DNA from: Rhodospirillaceae bacterium
GTDB lineage: Bacteria; Pseudomonadota; Alphaproteobacteria; Rhodospirillales; Rhodospirillaceae
Assembly (NCBI GenBank): GCA_004297485.1
Contig: SCTM01000053.1
Coordinates: 1 to 33,175 of the forward strand
DNA: 33,175 nucleotides
Direction: 5' to 3'
The position numbers and the translations under genes are program-made. The notes under the pieces are model-generated. The model worked only from the letters and a program-made list of their open reading frames with translations. It was not told the DNA's origin and ran no database searches. Below, piece by piece: positions 8,132-29,782 of this stretch (its first letter is position 1; each line of letters starts with the position of its first letter).

Positions 8132-8417
8132 GCGTGCTCTCCCTGACACCGATGTCCCAGCCGCTCCGCTCATCCCCGACGGCCATCGCCTAGCGCGGTC
8201 TCGCCAGCCAGAGACAAATTCAAGCAGAAAACCTTAGCCGAGGACGACTCATTTTTCAGGGCTGGGGCCGCGTCCCGGGGTTCAACGATGCCGATCTTTG
8301 CGACTCATACGTGCAGGCAACGTCTTTCTTTATAACGGTTTTGAGTACATACTACCTCCACAATCAGGGGTTTCGGCCGCGCGCGCATTAAGACAAAGAA
8401 GCACTGTGGGGACGGGA

Positions 8418-10352
8418 ATGGGGTCGAGAGTCTTGAGGCGCCAAAGTTATGCCGCGCTCTTCGCGGGCATAACTTCTCTTACCGCGATGTCGACAATTGA
8501 CGTACGGGCGGCAGACGCTGACGGCTTGAATTCAGTAGCGGAGATTAGCGCTCTTTCGATCGAAGAACTCGGCAATATCCAAGTTTCCTCCGTATCGAAA
8601 ACAGCCCAACCCCTGAGCACCGCACCAGCGGCGATTTATGTCATTACGCAGGATGACATCGCGCGTTCCGGGGCAACGCGTATCCCCGAAATGTTGCGGC
8701 TTGCGCCAAATCTCGACGTCGCGGCGGCAGGCTCCAGTGCCTATGCCATCTCGGCGCGCGGGTTTAACGGAACCTTGGCAAATAAGCTTCTGGTACTGAT
8801 CGACGGCCGCAGCGTCTACACGCCGCTTTACGGCGGCGTCTACTGGGACATGCAGGATGTGATGCCCGAGGACATCGATCGCATCGAGGTCATCAGCGGG
8901 CCGGGCGCCACGTTATGGGGCGCAAACGCCGTCAACGGCGTAATCAATATCACGACAAAGAAATCGTCAGACACCCAAGGTGGGATTCTAACTCTTGGCG
9001 CGGGTAACCTTGAGCGGAGCGCCAGCCTCCAATACGGCGGCAGTCTCAGTGACGACGCCTCCTACAGGGTCTACGCCAAAGGATACGAACACCAATCCAC
9101 CATAACGGCGGCCGGAAAGAATTCACACGATGGCTGGCGTGTACCGCAAGGCGGGTTCCGCTTCGACTGGAGTCCTGAAAACGACCTGATAACGGTGCAA
9201 GGCGATATTTATCGTGCCTCAGAAGATCAGCCGGCCGCATCTGACCAGATTGAATCCGGCCACAACCTGACCACACGTTGGGAACATCATTTCGCAAGCG
9301 GTTCGGTCGTACAGATCCAAGCCTACTACGACCGGGCTCAGCGCTTTGACAACAACGGCGGCTTTGCGCTCGACACCTATGATGTCGACGTGCAGCACAG
9401 TTTTAAGTTCGGAACTTGGAACGACATCGTCTGGGGCGGTGGCTATCGGGTCAATCACGACCAAATCCGGAACGCGGTCGCTTTCCAGATTCAGCCCGAC
9501 ACCCGAACACTCAGTCTCGGCAACGCCTTCGTGCAGGACAGCATCGCGCTTGCCAAATCGCTGAAGCTCACCGTCGGTCTAAAGCTTGAAGACGAGGAAT
9601 TCACGGGCCTCGAAGCCCTTCCCAGCGCGCGGGTGTCCTGGCAGGTCAACGATAAAGCCTTGATCTGGTCGGCGGTCTCCCGTGCCGTGCGGGCACCAAC
9701 ACGGTTCGACCGGGACGTTGTCGAGAAGCTTGGGCCGATCGTCTTTCTCATGGGCGGCGCGGACTTCCAGCCCGAGACACTCATGGCCTATGAACTCGGA
9801 ACCCGCGTCGAGGCTTCTTCCCGTCTATCGTTCTCGATTTCCACCTTCTACAATGTGTACGACTCACTCCGAAGCATCGAAGCGAACCCGGTAACCCACT
9901 TCCTTCCTCTGGTTTGGGGGAACTTGATGGCCGGCAAGGTCTACGGCATGGAGGCCTGGGCAAGCTACCAGATCAACAATTGGTGGCGCGTCAGCGGCGG
10001 CTTCAACGTGCAACACGAGAACCTGGGCTTCAAACCCGGCAGCAGCGGCTTGGGCGGAATTCAGCAAGCCGGGAACGATCCCGATCACCAGATTTCATTG
10101 CGTTCATCAATGAAGATCACCGACGACATCTTGTTCGACGCCGATGTGCGGTACGTGAGCGCGCTGCCGAACCCAGTCGTTCCGGCCTATGTTGAACTCA
10201 ATGGCCGACTGGGGTGGAAACCGACAAAATACATGGAAATCTCCATATCCGGGAACAACCTCCTCCATCGCTATTACCGGGAATTTAATGGCGGGCCCAC
10301 GGCTGTTGAAATGGCGCGCAGCGTCTTTGTCGAAACGCGATGGAGCTTCTAG
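8418..10352 (+). CDS. TonB-dependent receptor, first of a tandem pair
   Basis: An outer-membrane beta-barrel receptor, 644 residues from the ATG at 8418. This start gives a proper signal peptide ending near VRAADAD; upstream in-frame starts add unlikely residues. The plug domain is typical: SIEELGNIQVSSVSK, APAAIYVITQDDI, ARGFNGTLANKLLVLIDGRSVYTP and DRIEVISGPGATLWGANAVNGVINI. The C-terminus ends in Phe (ETRWSF), as outer-membrane barrels require. It opens a four-gene operon with a paralogous receptor, a YfiR protein and a hybrid histidine kinase. No ligand can be inferred from sequence. The 286-bp upstream region is shared with the divergent oxygenase gene and holds no promoter I can assign. 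Confidence 0.93.
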   Translation: MGSRVLRRQSYAALFAGITSLTAMSTIDVRAADADGLNSVAEISALSIEELGNIQVSSVSKTAQPLSTAPAAIYVITQDDIARSGATRIPEMLRLAPNLDVAAAGSSAYAISARGFNGTLANKLLVLIDGRSVYTPLYGGVYWDMQDVMPEDIDRIEVISGPGATLWGANAVNGVINITTKKSSDTQGGILTLGAGNLERSASLQYGGSLSDDASYRVYAKGYEHQSTITAAGKNSHDGWRVPQGGFRFDWSPENDLITVQGDIYRASEDQPAASDQIESGHNLTTRWEHHFASGSVVQIQAYYDRAQRFDNNGGFALDTYDVDVQHSFKFGTWNDIVWGGGYRVNHDQIRNAVAFQIQPDTRTLSLGNAFVQDSIALAKSLKLTVGLKLEDEEFTGLEALPSARVSWQVNDKALIWSAVSRAVRAPTRFDRDVVEKLGPIVFLMGGADFQPETLMAYELGTRVEASSRLSFSISTFYNVYDSLRSIEANPVTHFLPLVWGNLMAGKVYGMEAWASYQINNWWRVSGGFNVQHENLGFKPGSSGLGGIQQAGNDPDHQISLRSSMKITDDILFDADVRYVSALPNPVVPAYVELNGRLGWKPTKYMEISISGNNLLHRYYREFNGGPTAVEMARSVFVETRWSF

Positions 10353-12268
10353 TGGTGGCCGGACCGAAAATTTCCACCGGCAAACGCTTCGTTTTGGCCC
10401 TTACGACCGCGCTTACGGTGACGTCCGGAGCGGCGGCTGCGGACGCGGATGCGAACTCGGTGGCGGCGCTGAGCAGCATGTCGATCGAGGAATTGGCGAA
10501 TATCAAGATCGTTTCCGTATCAAGGAAAGCGGAGCCTTTGAGCGGCGCGCCTGCGGCAATTTATGTCATCACCAACGAGGATATTCGCCGATCGGGAAAG
10601 ACCAGCATCCCGGAGATGTTGCGTCTGGCCCCCAACTTGGTGGTGGCAGGCGTTGACTCCAGCACCTTTGCCATTTCCGCACGCGGGTTCAACAGCACCA
10701 CCGCCAACAAACTGCTCGTGCAAATCGATGGCCGCAGCATCTATACGCCGCTCTATTCCGGCGTCTTCTGGGATGCTCAGGATGTGATGCCAGATGACCT
10801 CGATCGCATCGAAGTGATCAGCGGCCCCGCCGGCACGCTCTGGGGCGGGAATGCCGTGAATGGTGTCATCAACATCTTGACCCGGAGTTCCCGCGACACC
10901 CAGGGCCTGGTGGCGAACGTCGGCGGCGGTAACTTCGAACGGAGCGCAGGCGCACGCTATGGCGGGAAGATCAACGATGACGCCACCTATCGCGTATACG
11001 CAAAGGGATTCGATCGCCTTGATACGGTAAAGGCGAGCGGTGTAAGCGCGAAGGACGCCTGGGAAAATGCCCAAGGTGGATTCAGGCTTGATTGGAATCC
11101 GAACACCGACACGGTGATGATCACCGGCGATGTCTATAGCGGTTCCATTCAGCAGCCCGTCGGCGCCGACAAGACCATCTCCGGCGGTAATGTCCTCGCG
11201 CGATGGGTTCATCCGTTGCCCGACGGATCGTCCATCGGTGCGCGCGTCTATTATGATCGAGTCAGCCGTGATTACCCTGGTACCTTCGGCGAGGCACGCA
11301 ACACCTATGATGCATTCCTGCAGTACCAGTTTCCCCTGGGCACACGCCAGGAGATCGTCGCGGGGGCAGAATATCGCACGTCGGCCGATCACATTACAAA
11401 TAGCCCGACCATCATGTTTCTACCGGCGGACCGCACGCTGGATCTGGGCAACGCGTTCGTCCAGGACAGCATCACCCTTACGAAGCGGCTCAAGCTGACC
11501 GTCGGAGTCAGATTGGAGCACAACACTTATACCGGCTGGGAAAACATGCCCAGCGCGCGCCTTGGATGGAAAATTAACGACAAGACGCTGCTATGGTCAG
11601 CGATTTCACGGGCTGTGCGCACGCCGTCGCGAATCGACCGGGATTTTTATTCTCCCGGCGTGCTTGCCGGCGGTCCCGATTTCCAATCGGAGGAATTAAC
11701 CGCCTACGAACTCGGTTACCGGGCCCAACCCACACAGCGCCTATCATTCTCAATCTCGGCGTTTTACAATGTATATAACGATCTGCGCAGCTTTGAACCC
11801 GCGACAGCCGGCAAACCCTTCCCTGTTGTATTTGTCAACAACATCGAAGGACATACCTACGGGGGAGAGATGTGGGGAAACTATGAGGTCAATGACTGGT
11901 GGCGGTTGAGCGCGGGATTCAACATGCTGCAGGAAGAACTCAAGTTTAAGCCGGGGACCAGCCAGCTTGGCGGTATACAGACCGCAGGCAATGATCCTTC
12001 CCACAAAATAACAGTGCGATCGAGCATGAACCTGTCGCATGATGTCGAGCTTGATGTTGGCCTGCGGATGATGGGCGCGCTGCCCAATCCTCGCGTACCG
12101 GGCTACGCCGCTGTCGATGGACGGGTTGGGTGGAATGTTTCGGATCATGTCACCCTGGCGCTGACCGCCGACGGTCTTCTCAATCGGCGCCACCCGGAGT
12201 TTGGAGCCGCAGGCACCCGCAGCGATCTTGGGCGAACATTTTACGTGAGCCTAAAATGGAAAAGCTGA
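10340..12268 (+). CDS. TonB-dependent receptor, second of a tandem pair
   Basis: A 642-residue paralogue of the preceding receptor, nearly collinear with it: SIEELANIKIVSVSRK, APAAIYVITNEDI, ARGFNSTTANKLLVQIDGRS and DRIEVISGPAGTLWGGNAVNGVINI. A signal peptide (about residues 15-33) precedes the plug domain. The reading frame overlaps the first receptor by 13 bases. An alternative start is GTG at 10352, overlapping the TAG stop by one base, with GGAG six bases upstream; this would give 638 residues and looks like translational coupling. The tandem duplication suggests related but distinct ligands. Its 3' end overlaps or abuts the yfiR-like gene. Confidence 0.93.
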   Translation: MELLVVAGPKISTGKRFVLALTTALTVTSGAAAADADANSVAALSSMSIEELANIKIVSVSRKAEPLSGAPAAIYVITNEDIRRSGKTSIPEMLRLAPNLVVAGVDSSTFAISARGFNSTTANKLLVQIDGRSIYTPLYSGVFWDAQDVMPDDLDRIEVISGPAGTLWGGNAVNGVINILTRSSRDTQGLVANVGGGNFERSAGARYGGKINDDATYRVYAKGFDRLDTVKASGVSAKDAWENAQGGFRLDWNPNTDTVMITGDVYSGSIQQPVGADKTISGGNVLARWVHPLPDGSSIGARVYYDRVSRDYPGTFGEARNTYDAFLQYQFPLGTRQEIVAGAEYRTSADHITNSPTIMFLPADRTLDLGNAFVQDSITLTKRLKLTVGVRLEHNTYTGWENMPSARLGWKINDKTLLWSAISRAVRTPSRIDRDFYSPGVLAGGPDFQSEELTAYELGYRAQPTQRLSFSISAFYNVYNDLRSFEPATAGKPFPVVFVNNIEGHTYGGEMWGNYEVNDWWRLSAGFNMLQEELKFKPGTSQLGGIQTAGNDPSHKITVRSSMNLSHDVELDVGLRMMGALPNPRVPGYAAVDGRVGWNVSDHVTLALTADGLLNRRHPEFGAAGTRSDLGRTFYVSLKWKS

Positions 12269-12846
12269 CCATGAGGCTACGGCTAACGCGGCGTCAGTTC
12301 GAGTGCACTGTCACGTCCGCGCTGATATTCCTCCTCGCGGTTTTTGCGCCTCATATCGTGTTTGCATTCGAAGGGGAAACGCTGGAATACGCTGTGAAGG
12401 CTGCATACCTCTACAAGCTCGGTGGGTTCGTGGAATGGCCGGCATCCGCGTTCGCCTCTTCGAACAGTCCGATAACGCTTTGTGTGGTGGGCGAGGATCC
12501 GTTCGACGGGATTCTGGATAAGGCCGTCGAGGGCCAGCACATTGGCGATCATCCAATTGCCGTTCGCCGCCTAAAGAGCGTAACCCATGAATCCGGATGC
12601 CAAATTTTATATGTCGGCGCTGCAGATCCGCGTCAGGTTGCTCAAGTCCTCGACGTGGTCCACGGGTCCAGCGTATTGACGGTGACAGATACGCCTGAGG
12701 ATTCTGAAACGGGCGGTGTCGTTCATTTCGTCATCAAGGATAACCGCGTCCGCTTTGATATCAACGATCAGGCCGCAGCGGAAAACGGTTTGGTCATCAG
12801 TTCGAAATTGTTAAGTCTCGCCATGTCCGTCAAGCCTCGCGCATAG
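12256..12846 (+). CDS. YfiR family periplasmic protein
   Basis: A secreted protein of about 196 residues. A signal peptide with hydrophobic core TSALIFLLAVFAPHIVFA precedes a YfiR/DUF4154 domain: YAVKAAYLYKLGGFVEWP, ITLCVVGEDPFDGILD, LTVTDTPEDSETGGVVHFVI and NRVRFDINDQAAAENGLVISSKLLSLA. In Pseudomonas, YfiR is a periplasmic repressor that binds the periplasmic part of the diguanylate cyclase YfiN. Here it lies between TonB receptors and a membrane histidine kinase, which suggests that it conveys receptor state to the kinase; that is inference. ATG at 12256 overlaps the receptor gene; ATG at 12271, directly after its stop, is also possible. The kinase gene starts 11 bases downstream. Confidence 0.9.
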   Translation: MEKLTMRLRLTRRQFECTVTSALIFLLAVFAPHIVFAFEGETLEYAVKAAYLYKLGGFVEWPASAFASSNSPITLCVVGEDPFDGILDKAVEGQHIGDHPIAVRRLKSVTHESGCQILYVGAADPRQVAQVLDVVHGSSVLTVTDTPEDSETGGVVHFVIKDNRVRFDINDQAAAENGLVISSKLLSLAMSVKPRA

Positions 12847-12857
12847 GTGGACACCTC

Positions 12858-15842
12858 ATGCTTAGATGGTTCGCCCGTCTTTCGATTCGTTGGAAGCTAG
12901 CTACCGTCACGATTGTTACGACCGCGGTATCGCTGCTTCTCGCCGGCGCCATCATGGCGGCATACGATGCCCGGACTTACGAGCGGCAAAAGGTTGAATC
13001 AACCACAGCCCAAGCGGACCTTCTGTCGGCCAGCATCGCCGCCTCTTTGGTCTTTAATGACCGTGACGCAACCCATGAATATCTGAGTGCACTCAACGTC
13101 AATCGCGAGATCGACGCCGCCGCCGCATATGACGCCGGAGACAATCTCGTCGCCAAATATGAACGGCCAAATGTCCATATTCGGCCCGTCCCCGAGATAG
13201 CCGAACCCCGGGGGTATCACTTTGACGGAGAACATCTCACCGTCTTCGTTCCCGTCATCGACCATAATGCCCGCCTGGGGAGCGTGTATTTGAGCGCAAG
13301 CGTCGAACCTGTCTCGACGCGGCTCGCGCGCTATGTGGCCAGCCTTGTTGTGATTGCATCCGCCGCACTCGCCGTGATTTTGCCCATCGCCCTCCGGCTC
13401 CAGCGCATTATAACAAACCCGATCGCCGAACTTGCCACGAAGAACGCGATTATCGAAACCACCCTTGAAGCTGTCGATCATGGTGTGATTGTCGTCGATT
13501 CCGAACTGCGCGTGTCATTTCTCAACGAGCGCGCTTACGTCATGCTGAACATACCGCGGCACAAGTTGCGGGTCGGCATGAACCTCGAGGCTTTCATGCG
13601 CGCGTGGGAGGCCGAGTTCGGGCTTCCAATTCAAGAGACAGGGTACAAGCGCCTGTACGCGACAGAAAAATTGCGCAAAGAATTTGTCTTGCCCGGTGGC
13701 AGAGTCATTGAGTTCCGTCAGTCGCCCCTGCCGCAGGGCGGGTTCGTCCGCACATATACCGACATCTCCGAGCAGCGCGTCCTGCAGGAAAAGCTGCAGC
13801 AGGCGAAGGAAAAAGCCGAGGAAGCCGCCACAGCAAAATCGAAATTCCTAGCGGCGATGAGCCACGAAATCCGCACGCCCATGAATGGCGTGGTCGGTAT
13901 TGTCGAGCTTTTGAAATCCACCCGCCTGTCGGACGAACAGAAACAGATGGTGGAGATTATCCAACGATCGGGAATCACGCTCCTGGACGTGATCAATGAC
14001 ATCCTCGACTATTCGAAAATTGAAGCCGGCCGGATGACCCTCGAAACGACAGCGTTTTCACTGGCCGACGTGGTCGAAACGACAGCTGAGATAAGTACGG
14101 CACACGCTCAGAGCAAGGCACTCGACATCTCATGCACCGTCGATCCGGACATCGACGAAATTCTCCAAGGTGATCCCGTCCGCGTTCGACAGGTTATTCT
14201 CAACATGATGGGTAACGCGGTGAAGTTCACCGAGAAGGGCGCCGTCGGCATCGAGGTTACAGCGGACACCATCACCGACGACCGTATCGTTGTTTTGTTC
14301 GAAATCACCGATAGCGGCATCGGCATCAGCTTGAAGAAGCAGAAGGCATTGTTTCAAGCTTTCCAGCAGGCGGATTACTCGACAACACGACGGTACGGCG
14401 GCACCGGCCTAGGTCTTTCGATCTGCAAGAACCTCGTAGAGTTGATGGGCGGTGAGATTGGCGTCAGCAGCATCGAAGGCAAAGGATCCACATTCTGGTT
14501 CAAGATTCCCTTTGAACGCCTGCAGCGCTCCGAGCCCACGAGCATGTTCAGTCATCATCAACGGCACCTGTCCGGCTTGCGTGTTCTCGTGCATGACTCA
14601 ATTCAGTCCCGGTCAGCCATTTCGCTATACTTGCGGGCGATCGGTATTGATGCAATCGAGTCAAAGGGAATCGCGGAACTGTTCGATACCCTTCGCCGCG
14701 CGAGAGCATCCGAACGGCCCATCCATATTGTGATCGTCCGTTTCCAAATCGGCGACGATCGCGCTCATACCTTTTATGAGGAGTTGGATCGGCATCCCTA
14801 CCTTGACGATACAAAATTTATTTTTGTCGTGCCGCACTTGAATGCCAGCGCGGCTCGTGTTGCCACAAAGGAAGGCGTTTCGTGGTCGATATCGGCGCCC
14901 ATTCGGCGGGCGAAGTTTTACGATCTGATCGCCCGCGTCACCGGCCGCATATCACGCAAGGTGAAGATGGAGGAAGACGCGGCCGATCTTAACTTCATTC
15001 CGCCGACGATAGACGAGGCCAGGTCCGCCGGTTGTCTGGTTCTCGTCGCCGAAGACAATGAGACAAACCAGTTTGTCATCAAGAGCCAGCTACAAAGACT
15101 GGGGATTGCCGCCGAATTTGTAAATGACGGACGCGAGGCCTGGGATAATCTGAGCCGCGAGGAAGATCGATATGGCCTTGTCATTACCGACTGCCATATG
15201 CCGTTTATCGATGGCTATCAGCTTACAGGACTCATCCGTGATCAAGAGCTGACAACGAAACGCCGTCGCTTGCCGGTTGTCGCGCTCACCGCCAACGCCC
15301 TGCAGGGCGAAAGCGATATTTGCCGCGCGGCGGGAATGGACGATTATCTTTTCAAACCCAGCAGTCTCGAGGCGCTCGATATCGTCCTGAACAAGTGGTT
15401 GCCGAAGGCCATCAAGCTGCGTCGGCCTCAGGCACCTTCGAGCACCGGCAGCGCCCCTGTTCACAGCGTCCGGAATACAACACCGGTTAAGAAGAACGGA
15501 GCCGCGAACCCGCCAATCGATATCGCCACCTTGGCAGGCGTTCTCGCTAAATATAATCCTGAATACCCGCGAAAAATATTGGAAGTGTTCCGGACAACGG
15601 AATCACAGACAGCAGCAAAATTGCGCGAGCTCGTGCGGACCCAGAACGCGACGGCATTGAGAGCTGCGGCCCATGGTGCAAAGGGCTCAGCGGCATCGGC
15701 CTATGCCGGAAAATTGGCGGGACTGTGCGCCGAACTCGAACGGAGCGCCGAACAGCCGGATTGGATAGCGATCGACGTTCTGACGGCAAAGATCGAGAAC
15801 GAATTTGAAGAGGTTCTGAGCTTCATCGAAAATCTCGAATAG
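12858..15842 (+). CDS. Hybrid sensor histidine kinase with HPt domain
   Basis: A 994-residue inner-membrane kinase. Transmembrane helices near residues 14-36 and 159-181 enclose a periplasmic domain resembling CHASE8 of YfiN ([16 protein letters not shown]). Then come a PAS-like region (about 196-310) and a short coiled coil. The HisKA domain has the phospho-acceptor His336 in [11 protein letters not shown], and the ATPase domain has NAVKFTE, DSGIGIS and GGTGLGLSI. Next is a degenerate receiver (about 574-690) with Arg628 where the acceptor Asp should be. A functional receiver carries Asp778 in [12 protein letters not shown], and the C-terminal HPt has His939 in [16 protein letters not shown] precedes the ATG. 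No response regulator is adjacent, so the final phosphate acceptor is unknown. It is last in the receptor/YfiR operon. Confidence 0.93.
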
Positions 15843-26764: not shown

Positions 26765-28078
<1,314 letters not shown>

Positions 28079-28086
28079 TCAACTCG

Positions 28087-28143
28087 CAGAGCTTTAGCTC
28101 TGACATTCGCTTCGCAGTCCCACCGTTACCTGGGTAGCGAATG
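28087..28143. promoter_or_regulatory. Two palindromes upstream of eno
   Basis: CAGAGCTTTAGCTCTG (28087-28102) has perfect 7-base arms around TT. Directly after it, CATTCGCT (28104-28111) pairs with AGCGAATG (28136-28143). Both lie in the 245-bp divergent region between eno and the first small lipoprotein gene, within 100 bases of the eno start. They may be operators or leader structures; the role is unknown. Confidence 0.4.
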
Positions 28144-28296
28144 CCAAATCCGCTCCACGAGCGCGGTTGATGCGGGAAAAGCCGCTCAAGGTCAAGCGGC
28201 TCCCCACGTGCCACAAAAAGCACCCGATCGTGCCACACTTTTTTCGGTTTTTACCGTTAAAGAGAATGGCGGGGCGACGGCCAAGGAGTACTTACC

Positions 28297-28518
28297 ATGT
28301 CTGGTCTAAAAGTCTGTTTTGCCCTTCTAAGCTTGGCAACCTTCGCCGGCTGTGTCGCATACGCCGGCCCGGACCCCTACGAAGACCGGCACCGCGCCTG
28401 GTGGGCCGAGCACCACCGCGAGGAAATGTACGAGCGCGAGCGCGCCTATCACGATCATCGCGGCTGGTGTGAAGATCATGACGGCGACGATAGCTGCCAA
28501 GGTTGGTATCACCGGTAA
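28297..28518 (+). CDS. Small Trp/Cys/His-rich lipoprotein, copy 1
   Basis: A 73-residue precursor with a lipoprotein signal peptide: a hydrophobic core, then LATFAGC with lipidation Cys19. The mature part of about 55 residues is very rich in His, Glu, Asp, Trp and Tyr. It shares the pattern HRxW...HREEMYER...WCxDH...DxSCxGWY with the next gene. Two mature cysteines (in WCED and SCQG) could form a disulfide. AAGGAG precedes the ATG. I do not recognise the family, and no function is proposed beyond an envelope location. Codon use and composition match the genome, so it does not look recently acquired. Confidence 0.8.
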   Translation: MSGLKVCFALLSLATFAGCVAYAGPDPYEDRHRAWWAEHHREEMYERERAYHDHRGWCEDHDGDDSCQGWYHR

Positions 28519-28612
28519 CGGTTTCAGCCACCCTCCAGGGTGACGCTCATTTCCGCTGCGAAACTGCCCCGGGAATCCAGGATCTCCGGGGCGAGATCGA
28601 GGAGGATTTGCC

Positions 28613-28831
28613 ATGAAAGCCATGAGAATCTGCTTTGCCGTCCTGACCGTTCTAACCGTGGCGGCCTGTGCCGACGATGACGAGAGTTACGAGGCCCGCC
28701 ATCGCAGCTGGTCGTCGGAACAGCATCGCGAGGAAATGTATGAACGCCAGCGCGCGCTGGCGGCTCATCGGGCCTGGTGCGACGATCACCCCTCCGATAG
28801 CAGCTGCGAAGGCTGGTACAATCGCTACTGA
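28613..28831 (+). CDS. Small Trp/Cys/His-rich lipoprotein, copy 2
   Basis: A 72-residue paralogue of the preceding protein. The signal peptide ends in LTVAAC with lipidation Cys19, at the same position as in copy 1. The HREEMYER block, the WCDDH motif and the SSCEGWYNRY ending are conserved, whereas the segments between them have diverged. GAGGAGG precedes the ATG. The genes are separated by 94 bases that partly resemble intergenic repeat sequence (GGGAATCCAGGAT at about 28570). It ends 12 bases from the convergent kdsA gene. Conservation of spacing between the motifs after divergence suggests that both copies are under selection. Confidence 0.8.
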   Translation: MKAMRICFAVLTVLTVAACADDDESYEARHRSWSSEQHREEMYERQRALAAHRAWCDDHPSDSSCEGWYNRY

Positions 28832-28843
28832 TTGTGAAGTTGC

Positions 28844-29698
28844 TTAGTCGATCTGAAACGGATTGGCTTTTGCCAACCGGTCGAAGGCCTGCAAGGTCTT
28901 GAGGATCGCCGGCATGTCCTTGAGGTGAATCATATTGGGCCCGTCCGACGGCGCATGGTCCGGGTCCGGGTGGGTTTCCATGAACACCGCCGCCACCCCC
29001 ACGGACACGGCGGCACGGGCAATGACCGGCGCGAACTCGCGCTGGCCACCGGAGCTGGTCCCCTGCCCGCCCGGTTGCTGGACGGCATGGGTCGCGTCCA
29101 TGACCACCGGATAGCCGGTCTTGGCCAGGATCGGCAGACTGCGCATGTCGGCGACCAAGGTGTTGTAGCCGAAGGACACGCCGCGTTCGGTCACGAGAAT
29201 GCGGGTGTTGCCCGTGGACTCAACTTTCGCGACCACATTGGCCATGTCCCACGGGGCAAGAAACTGACCCTTCTTGACGTTGATGGCGGCCTTGGTCTTT
29301 CCCGCCGCCAGCAGCAGGTCGGTCTGACGGCACAGGAACGCCGGGATCTGCATGACGTCCACCACTTCGGACACCGGCACGCATTGGTCGATCTCGTGAA
29401 TGTCGGTGAGGGTCGCAAGTCCCAGTTTCTCTTTGATCTCCGCAAACACCGGGAGTGAGTCCTTTAAACCCATGCCGCGCTTGCCGGAAGCGGACGTGCG
29501 GTTGGCTTTGTCGAAAGACGTTTTGTAGATGAGGCCCAAGCCCAGTGCCGCCGTCATTTCCTTGAGGGCCGAAGCAACTTCAAGAGCGTGGGCGCGGCTT
29601 TCCATCTGGCAGGGCCCGGCGATGATCGCCATGGGCAGGTCGTTGCCCATGGTGACGGAGCCGATGGTGACGTGGTGGGACGCGGAAGATTGGGTCAT
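28844..29698 (-). CDS. kdsA: 3-deoxy-8-phosphooctulonate synthase
   Basis: A 284-residue enzyme that condenses arabinose-5-phosphate with phosphoenolpyruvate to make KDO-8-phosphate for lipopolysaccharide. Recognised segments are MAIIAGPCQMESRAHALEVA near the N-terminus, YKTSFDKANRTS, LTDIHEIDQ, QIPAFLCRQTDLL, NVKKGQFLAPWDM and DATHAVQQPGGQGTSSGGQREF. The ATG at 29698 gives the normal family length, although no strong Shine-Dalgarno sequence is visible; the frame runs upstream to 29764 into repeat-like DNA. It lies downstream of pyrG, a common alphaproteobacterial arrangement, with a 125-bp gap. Confidence 0.96.
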   Translation of the reverse strand: MTQSSASHHVTIGSVTMGNDLPMAIIAGPCQMESRAHALEVASALKEMTAALGLGLIYKTSFDKANRTSASGKRGMGLKDSLPVFAEIKEKLGLATLTDIHEIDQCVPVSEVVDVMQIPAFLCRQTDLLLAAGKTKAAINVKKGQFLAPWDMANVVAKVESTGNTRILVTERGVSFGYNTLVADMRSLPILAKTGYPVVMDATHAVQQPGGQGTSSGGQREFAPVIARAAVSVGVAAVFMETHPDPDHAPSDGPNMIHLKDMPAILKTLQAFDRLAKANPFQID

Positions 29699-29782
29699 GG
29701 GGACAATATAGATTGCACGGCGCTCAAATGTCACCCCGCGCCTGACGCAGGGTCCAAGCCTCAACGGCCGACTTTGCTAGCT

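Follow-up and report, generated by a model that had tools for sequence, protein, structure and literature searches.

Tandem predicted lipoproteins and a decayed enolase copy between their genes in a Rhodospirillaceae contig

Two kinds of small lipoprotein come closest to the gene pair described here. Llp of phage T5 is a small disulfide lipoprotein that blocks the phage receptor. Entericidins A and B of Escherichia coli are encoded in tandem (ecnA/ecnB), and their mature parts are shorter than 54-55 residues. EcnAB is treated in one account as a toxin-antitoxin pair of lipoproteins (PMC5105897). The locus analysed here lies in a window of 33,175 nucleotides, which is one whole contig of a 4.56 Mb genome in 356 contigs. 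An earlier, sequence-only reading of this DNA had proposed two small tandem lipoprotein genes of 73 and 72 residues, and both are present on the plus strand at the positions listed in Table 1.

Table 1 Features of the gene pair and its surroundings, in window positions
Feature	Position	Strand	Remarks
eno (enolase)	26765..28051	-	divergent neighbour, from which the duplicated scrap derives; name assigned by eye on the translation
Leader	28052..28296		245 bp, between eno and paralogue 1
Lipoprotein paralogue 1	28297..28518	+	73 aa; predicted signal peptide 1-18, lipid Cys19, mature part 55 aa
Decayed eno copy	28527..28603	-	codons ~4-30; reads ILLDLAPEILDSRGSFAAEMSVTLEGG, then stop
Lipoprotein paralogue 2	28613..28831	+	72 aa; predicted signal peptide 1-18, lipid Cys19, mature part 54 aa
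kdsA	28844..29764	-	named by eye; convergent neighbour; ends 13 bp past paralogue 2

The gene pair and its coding evidence

Both window proteins pass our test for a type II signal peptide (positive start, hydrophobic stretch and lipobox cysteine), and Cys19 ends the lipobox in each, in agreement with the identical lipidation position that had been claimed. The window contains 220 mechanically called ORFs of 50 aa or more, and only these two satisfy the lipobox rule, which follows PROSITE. Position -3 of paralogue 1 is occupied by phenylalanine, a less usual residue there. The motifs HREEMYER and WC[ED]DH-x4-SCxGWY, also part of the earlier description, are common to the two proteins, whose mature parts are identical at 30 of 48 residues (BLASTP E 7e-22, single comparison). 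SD-like sequences precede both starts (AAGGAG before paralogue 1 and GAGGAGGA before paralogue 2).

Across 71 codon pairs, the paralogues differ 20, 20 and 36 times at codon positions 1, 2 and 3, respectively, a bias for which 16 of 20,000 within-codon permutations were equally extreme. This pattern argues that conservation acts at the protein level. The Nei-Gojobori estimates were dN 0.34 and dS 1.79, from which dN/dS is approximate because dS is near saturation; for the mature part alone, dS was incomputable, with synonymous sites near saturation. The first 19 codons differ at 11 of 19 residues (dN 0.47), and the remaining codons at 22 of 52 (dN 0.30). Judged by these comparisons, the two genes resemble functional paralogues that evolve as proteins, and the second copy appears to be maintained by purifying selection.

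A scrap of enolase between the genes

The pair lies in the order eno (-), the two lipoprotein genes (+), kdsA (-) and pyrG (-), with the flanking genes named by eye; the kdsA ORF was called mechanically from a TTG start, and its true start is probably further in. When the DNA of the pair was compared with its own genome, the intergenic gap matched eno at 27962-28030 (74% over 69 bp, E 9.2e-5). Local alignment extended this match to the full scrap listed in Table 1, against eno 27962-28041, with a score of 50. With 2000 dinucleotide-shuffled versions of the gap, no score exceeded 31, and the highest among 804 other window tiles was 26. Translated on the minus strand, the scrap is identical to eno residues 4-30 at 15 of 27 positions (hand count) and is followed by a stop. 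These alignments indicate that a tandem duplication carried the 5' end of eno along and that its remains sit between the genes. The duplicated segment thus started near eno codon 30 and ended no more than a few bases past the paralogue 1 stop, and the scrap marks the duplication breakpoint and explains the pair.

The leader and the gap share a best local match of only 16-17 nt. The ~27 bases immediately upstream of each start do align (about 20 of 27 columns); since this stretch partly coincides with the end of the eno scrap, the position of the duplication junction is approximate. No consensus sigma-70 promoter was found in 28000-28900, and hence none for paralogue 1 either, nor was a plus-strand terminator found in the same interval. 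Because most of the leader is without a counterpart before paralogue 2, the second gene is probably reached by transcription that passes through paralogue 1 and would start upstream of that gene.

Elsewhere in the window, two adjacent ORFs at 8298-12268 read by eye as tandem TonB-dependent receptors; next come an ORF resembling YfiR (12130-12846) and one resembling a hybrid sensor kinase (12858-15842). The receptor pair is possibly another tandem duplication on the same contig.

Relatives and genomic setting

With a single protein as query, 6 of 61 genomes matched, namely the window's own, the two other members of its genus that were returned (G001 and G002), and three weak matches (G026, G007 and G019). 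The weak matches were rejected, as they run across other frames of ordinary genes or lie in another lipoprotein (genes named by eye), and they also fail the family profile at E 0.01. With this profile, 4 of 73 genomes of the taxonomic family matched: the window's own, G001, G002 and G085, which belongs to another genus. The order-level profile search recovered the identical four, again including G085, among 317 genomes. The class sample (2 of 385) and the phylum sample (2 of 398) each returned the own genome and one false match, the former antisense to an RTX-like repeat gene (G607) and the latter in another frame of a cyclase-like gene (G722; both genes named by eye). The order, class and phylum searches scored only 17-22 first-look candidates per genome and may therefore have overlooked weak relatives.

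A pattern scan of 84,980 species genomes yielded 27 stretches, against roughly 16 chance matches expected by hand estimate. Two of these stretches (three matches) are G001 and G002; the other 25 have neither the family core nor a lipobox by eye and were taken as chance. The pattern was fixed at 8 residues between the two cysteines, which makes it blind to the 7-residue spacing of G085, and the scan may omit records of the window's own genome. With paralogue 2 as the sole query, no relative was found in 50,697 phage records, in 72,556 plasmid records or in viral contigs. The sequence-only reading had named a lack of both homologues and transcript as grounds for refutation; homologues were found, confined to a narrow clade, and the protein family is, as far as these searches indicate, narrowly distributed, lineage-specific and ordinary-looking.

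The two scan records are labelled Candidatus Marinimicrobia bacterium RH-23may17-447 (G001) and Rhodospirillaceae bacterium RH-23may17-603 (G002). The first label, on CANJPQ010000012.1, looks wrong: the record is placed in the window's genus, and its eno is 91% identical to that of the window.

Just 5' of eno, and pointing away from it, G001 carries one copy of the gene and G002 carries two. The G002 copies (locus 1366-1959) lie in a single open frame with no stop between them, and this double-domain frame may give a fusion protein or two products. A lipobox is present in five of the six family copies (both window proteins, G001, G002 copy a and G085). G002 copy b has a hydrophobic leader, lacks a lipobox and fails the type II signal peptide test; anchoring is therefore not kept in every copy.

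An eno match was obtained in 68 of 72 genomes, and the best 30 eno loci were examined. In three of these 30, all from the window's genus, the lipoprotein gene sits at eno. In 17, kdsA lies within up to 1500 bases of eno, with a kdsA-eno gap of only about 21 to 140 bp in five of them. G085 is among these five (gap about 28 bp), and its lipoprotein gene is located elsewhere. It therefore seems that the lipoprotein gene was inserted between eno and kdsA in the genus of the window. In G085, the homologue and an ORF that by eye resembles DsbA (CPYC motif) converge on each other (720-1412 and 1495-1752); such a neighbour is suggestive for a disulfide protein and was seen in this one genome.

The eno scrap was not found in the examined stretches beyond eno of G001 and G002, where the best scores were 22 and 25 at unrelated places. 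The window paralogues are 61% identical to each other over the mature alignment and 37 to 51% identical to the G001, G002 and G085 copies. Taken with the eno scrap, their closeness to each other suggests that the duplication took place in the window's lineage, and the G002 pair probably arose separately.

Conserved core, possible function and known systems

Invariant in all six copies are H12, W15, A30, H34, R35, C38, D44, S46, C47, G49 and W50 (paralogue 2 mature numbering). Conservation of the two mature cysteines, which the sequence-only reading had named as a check, therefore extends to six of six copies, and the invariant pair fits the disulfide-stabilised structure that had been considered. 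A disulfide between these two residues is likely from their conservation. The genome encodes both DsbB and signal peptidase II. For the annotation of unnamed genes, the core can be written as HR-x2-C-x7-8-C-x-GW, in which D and S precede the second cysteine.

AlphaFold models, which rest on a thin alignment because only six copies are known, gave helices 11-21 and 29-42 for paralogue 1 (pLDDT 82, pTM 0.64) and helices 5-19 and 21-40 for paralogue 2 (pLDDT 80, pTM 0.46). In both models, the first mature cysteine is placed close to where the second helix ends; a short loop and a three-residue turn follow, and the second mature cysteine is the last residue of that turn. The models disagree on the helix break, which is one residue in one and a seven-residue loop in the other.

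Searches of known families bore out the view that no described family has this pattern, with no credible match in Pfam, NCBIfam, PHROGs, PADLOC or PDB. The best Pfam match for the window proteins was DUF4005 (PF13178), which paralogue 2 resembles weakly (E 0.12 whole, 0.059 mature); the scores of 13.4 and 14.4 bits fall short of the curated cut-off of 22.1 and paralogue 1 is without a match, and we regard this likeness as chance. DUF2502 (PF10697) was weakly matched by one of the six family copies (E 0.0037), whereas the other five had no match at E ≤1 and the window proteins were not listed; we did not assign the family to DUF2502, and the lone match perhaps reflects composition. The best NCBIfam match reached E 0.012 and 15.6 bits against a cut-off of 118, and the best PHROGs match E 0.035. 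Neither protein matched any PADLOC-DB family at E up to 1, and the family profile gave 0 matches among PDB sequences at E up to 10. Foldseek found nothing in the PDB at E ≤0.001 for either model and nothing among viral models for paralogue 1, and Rfam found nothing in the window. A full-text literature search, a weak basis for absence, returned no paper on such a family.

We consider it probable that the locus encodes a lineage-specific, tandem-duplicated pair in which each protein is a lipid-anchored helical knob with one disulfide and an accessory role in the envelope. This reading is favoured because of the lipoboxes, the invariant cysteine pair with its D, S and GW, the protein-level constraint and the helical models, and further because of the DsbB and signal peptidase II genes, the eno-side relatives in the genus and the eno fossil. 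Each protein is predicted to be exported, to carry a lipid on Cys19 and to be anchored in the envelope. Position +2 is occupied by Val or Ala rather than Asp. In E. coli, a residue other than Asp at this position favours the outer membrane, and by this rule the outer membrane would be favoured here; the predicted site of both lipoproteins is the outer membrane or the periplasm. The mature 54-55 residues would form two short helices, according to models of moderate confidence. The cysteine near the end of the second helix would bond to that of SCxGWY and fold the aromatic tail back as a knob, as conservation and the models suggest. With its conserved His, Trp and Arg, the knob would most likely bind a putative envelope partner as an accessory or stress factor. 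Purifying selection would maintain the second copy, which is probably co-transcribed with the first.

Other readings were weighed against this one. Metal binding had been read from the density of histidines, and a lipoprotein that binds or buffers transition metal in the periplasm through His, Asp, Glu and Cys would suit the 7 and 4 histidines and the many acidic residues of the mature parts; the two His, two Cys and one Asp that are invariant could in principle form one site. What weakens this idea is that the six copies share no more than two invariant His, most being unconserved even between the paralogues. Moreover, an invariant cysteine pair in an oxidising compartment, in a genome with a DsbB gene, is more likely a disulfide, and the neighbours recognised by eye (eno, kdsA, pyrG and pdh genes) include no metal gene beside the pair. 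We hold metal binding to be unlikely, and the description of a His-rich metal sponge is not supported by the conservation pattern. A surface or periplasmic exclusion factor of the phage receptor-blocking type, brought by mobile DNA and duplicated under selection, is less probable still. Small disulfide blockers of this type are known (Llp), and the narrow distribution and the different gene sites in G085 and the window's genus would suit such an origin; against it stand the absence of phage, plasmid and viral-contig relatives of paralogue 2, of any PADLOC match or credible PHROGs match, and, in the listed ORFs as read by eye, of any integrase or phage gene.

That the tandem arrangement reflects an entericidin-like toxin and antidote acting on their own envelope we judge very improbable, as the gene is single copy in one of the three genus members and in G085, and the mature parts are longer and carry a cysteine pair. 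Moreover, no entericidin model was listed in the Pfam and NCBIfam scans run to E 10, in which HMMER filters drop most matches above about 0.1. Small gene size, narrow distribution and the missing consensus promoter could also be taken to mean spurious ORFs or decaying pseudogenes. This has the lowest standing of all, given the protein-level constraint, the lipobox in both proteins and in three relatives' copies, the ribosome-binding-site-like sequences and the syntenic relatives. A bolder version of our favoured account, to which we give little credence, is that the lineage invented a minimal disulfide-stapled helical lipoprotein whose copies were repeatedly duplicated under diversifying demand at the surface or in the periplasm. 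Such demand might be phage exclusion or a paired ligand and antidote, and the separate duplications would be those in the window's genome and in G002, with its two copies in one open frame.

What the locus offers is a well-bounded, narrow lipoprotein family in which the origin of a second copy is clearly recorded; the family alone answers no long-standing question. The phage receptor-blocking lipoproteins Llp and Cor are likewise small, and Llp has a disulfide, whereas the present proteins have no phage match and their models are helical. With entericidin A/B the pair shares the tandem arrangement of small predicted lipoproteins, and it differs in its larger mature part, its invariant cysteine pair and the one or two copies found in relatives. 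The family is undescribed, and families of this kind are familiar from bacterial genomes.
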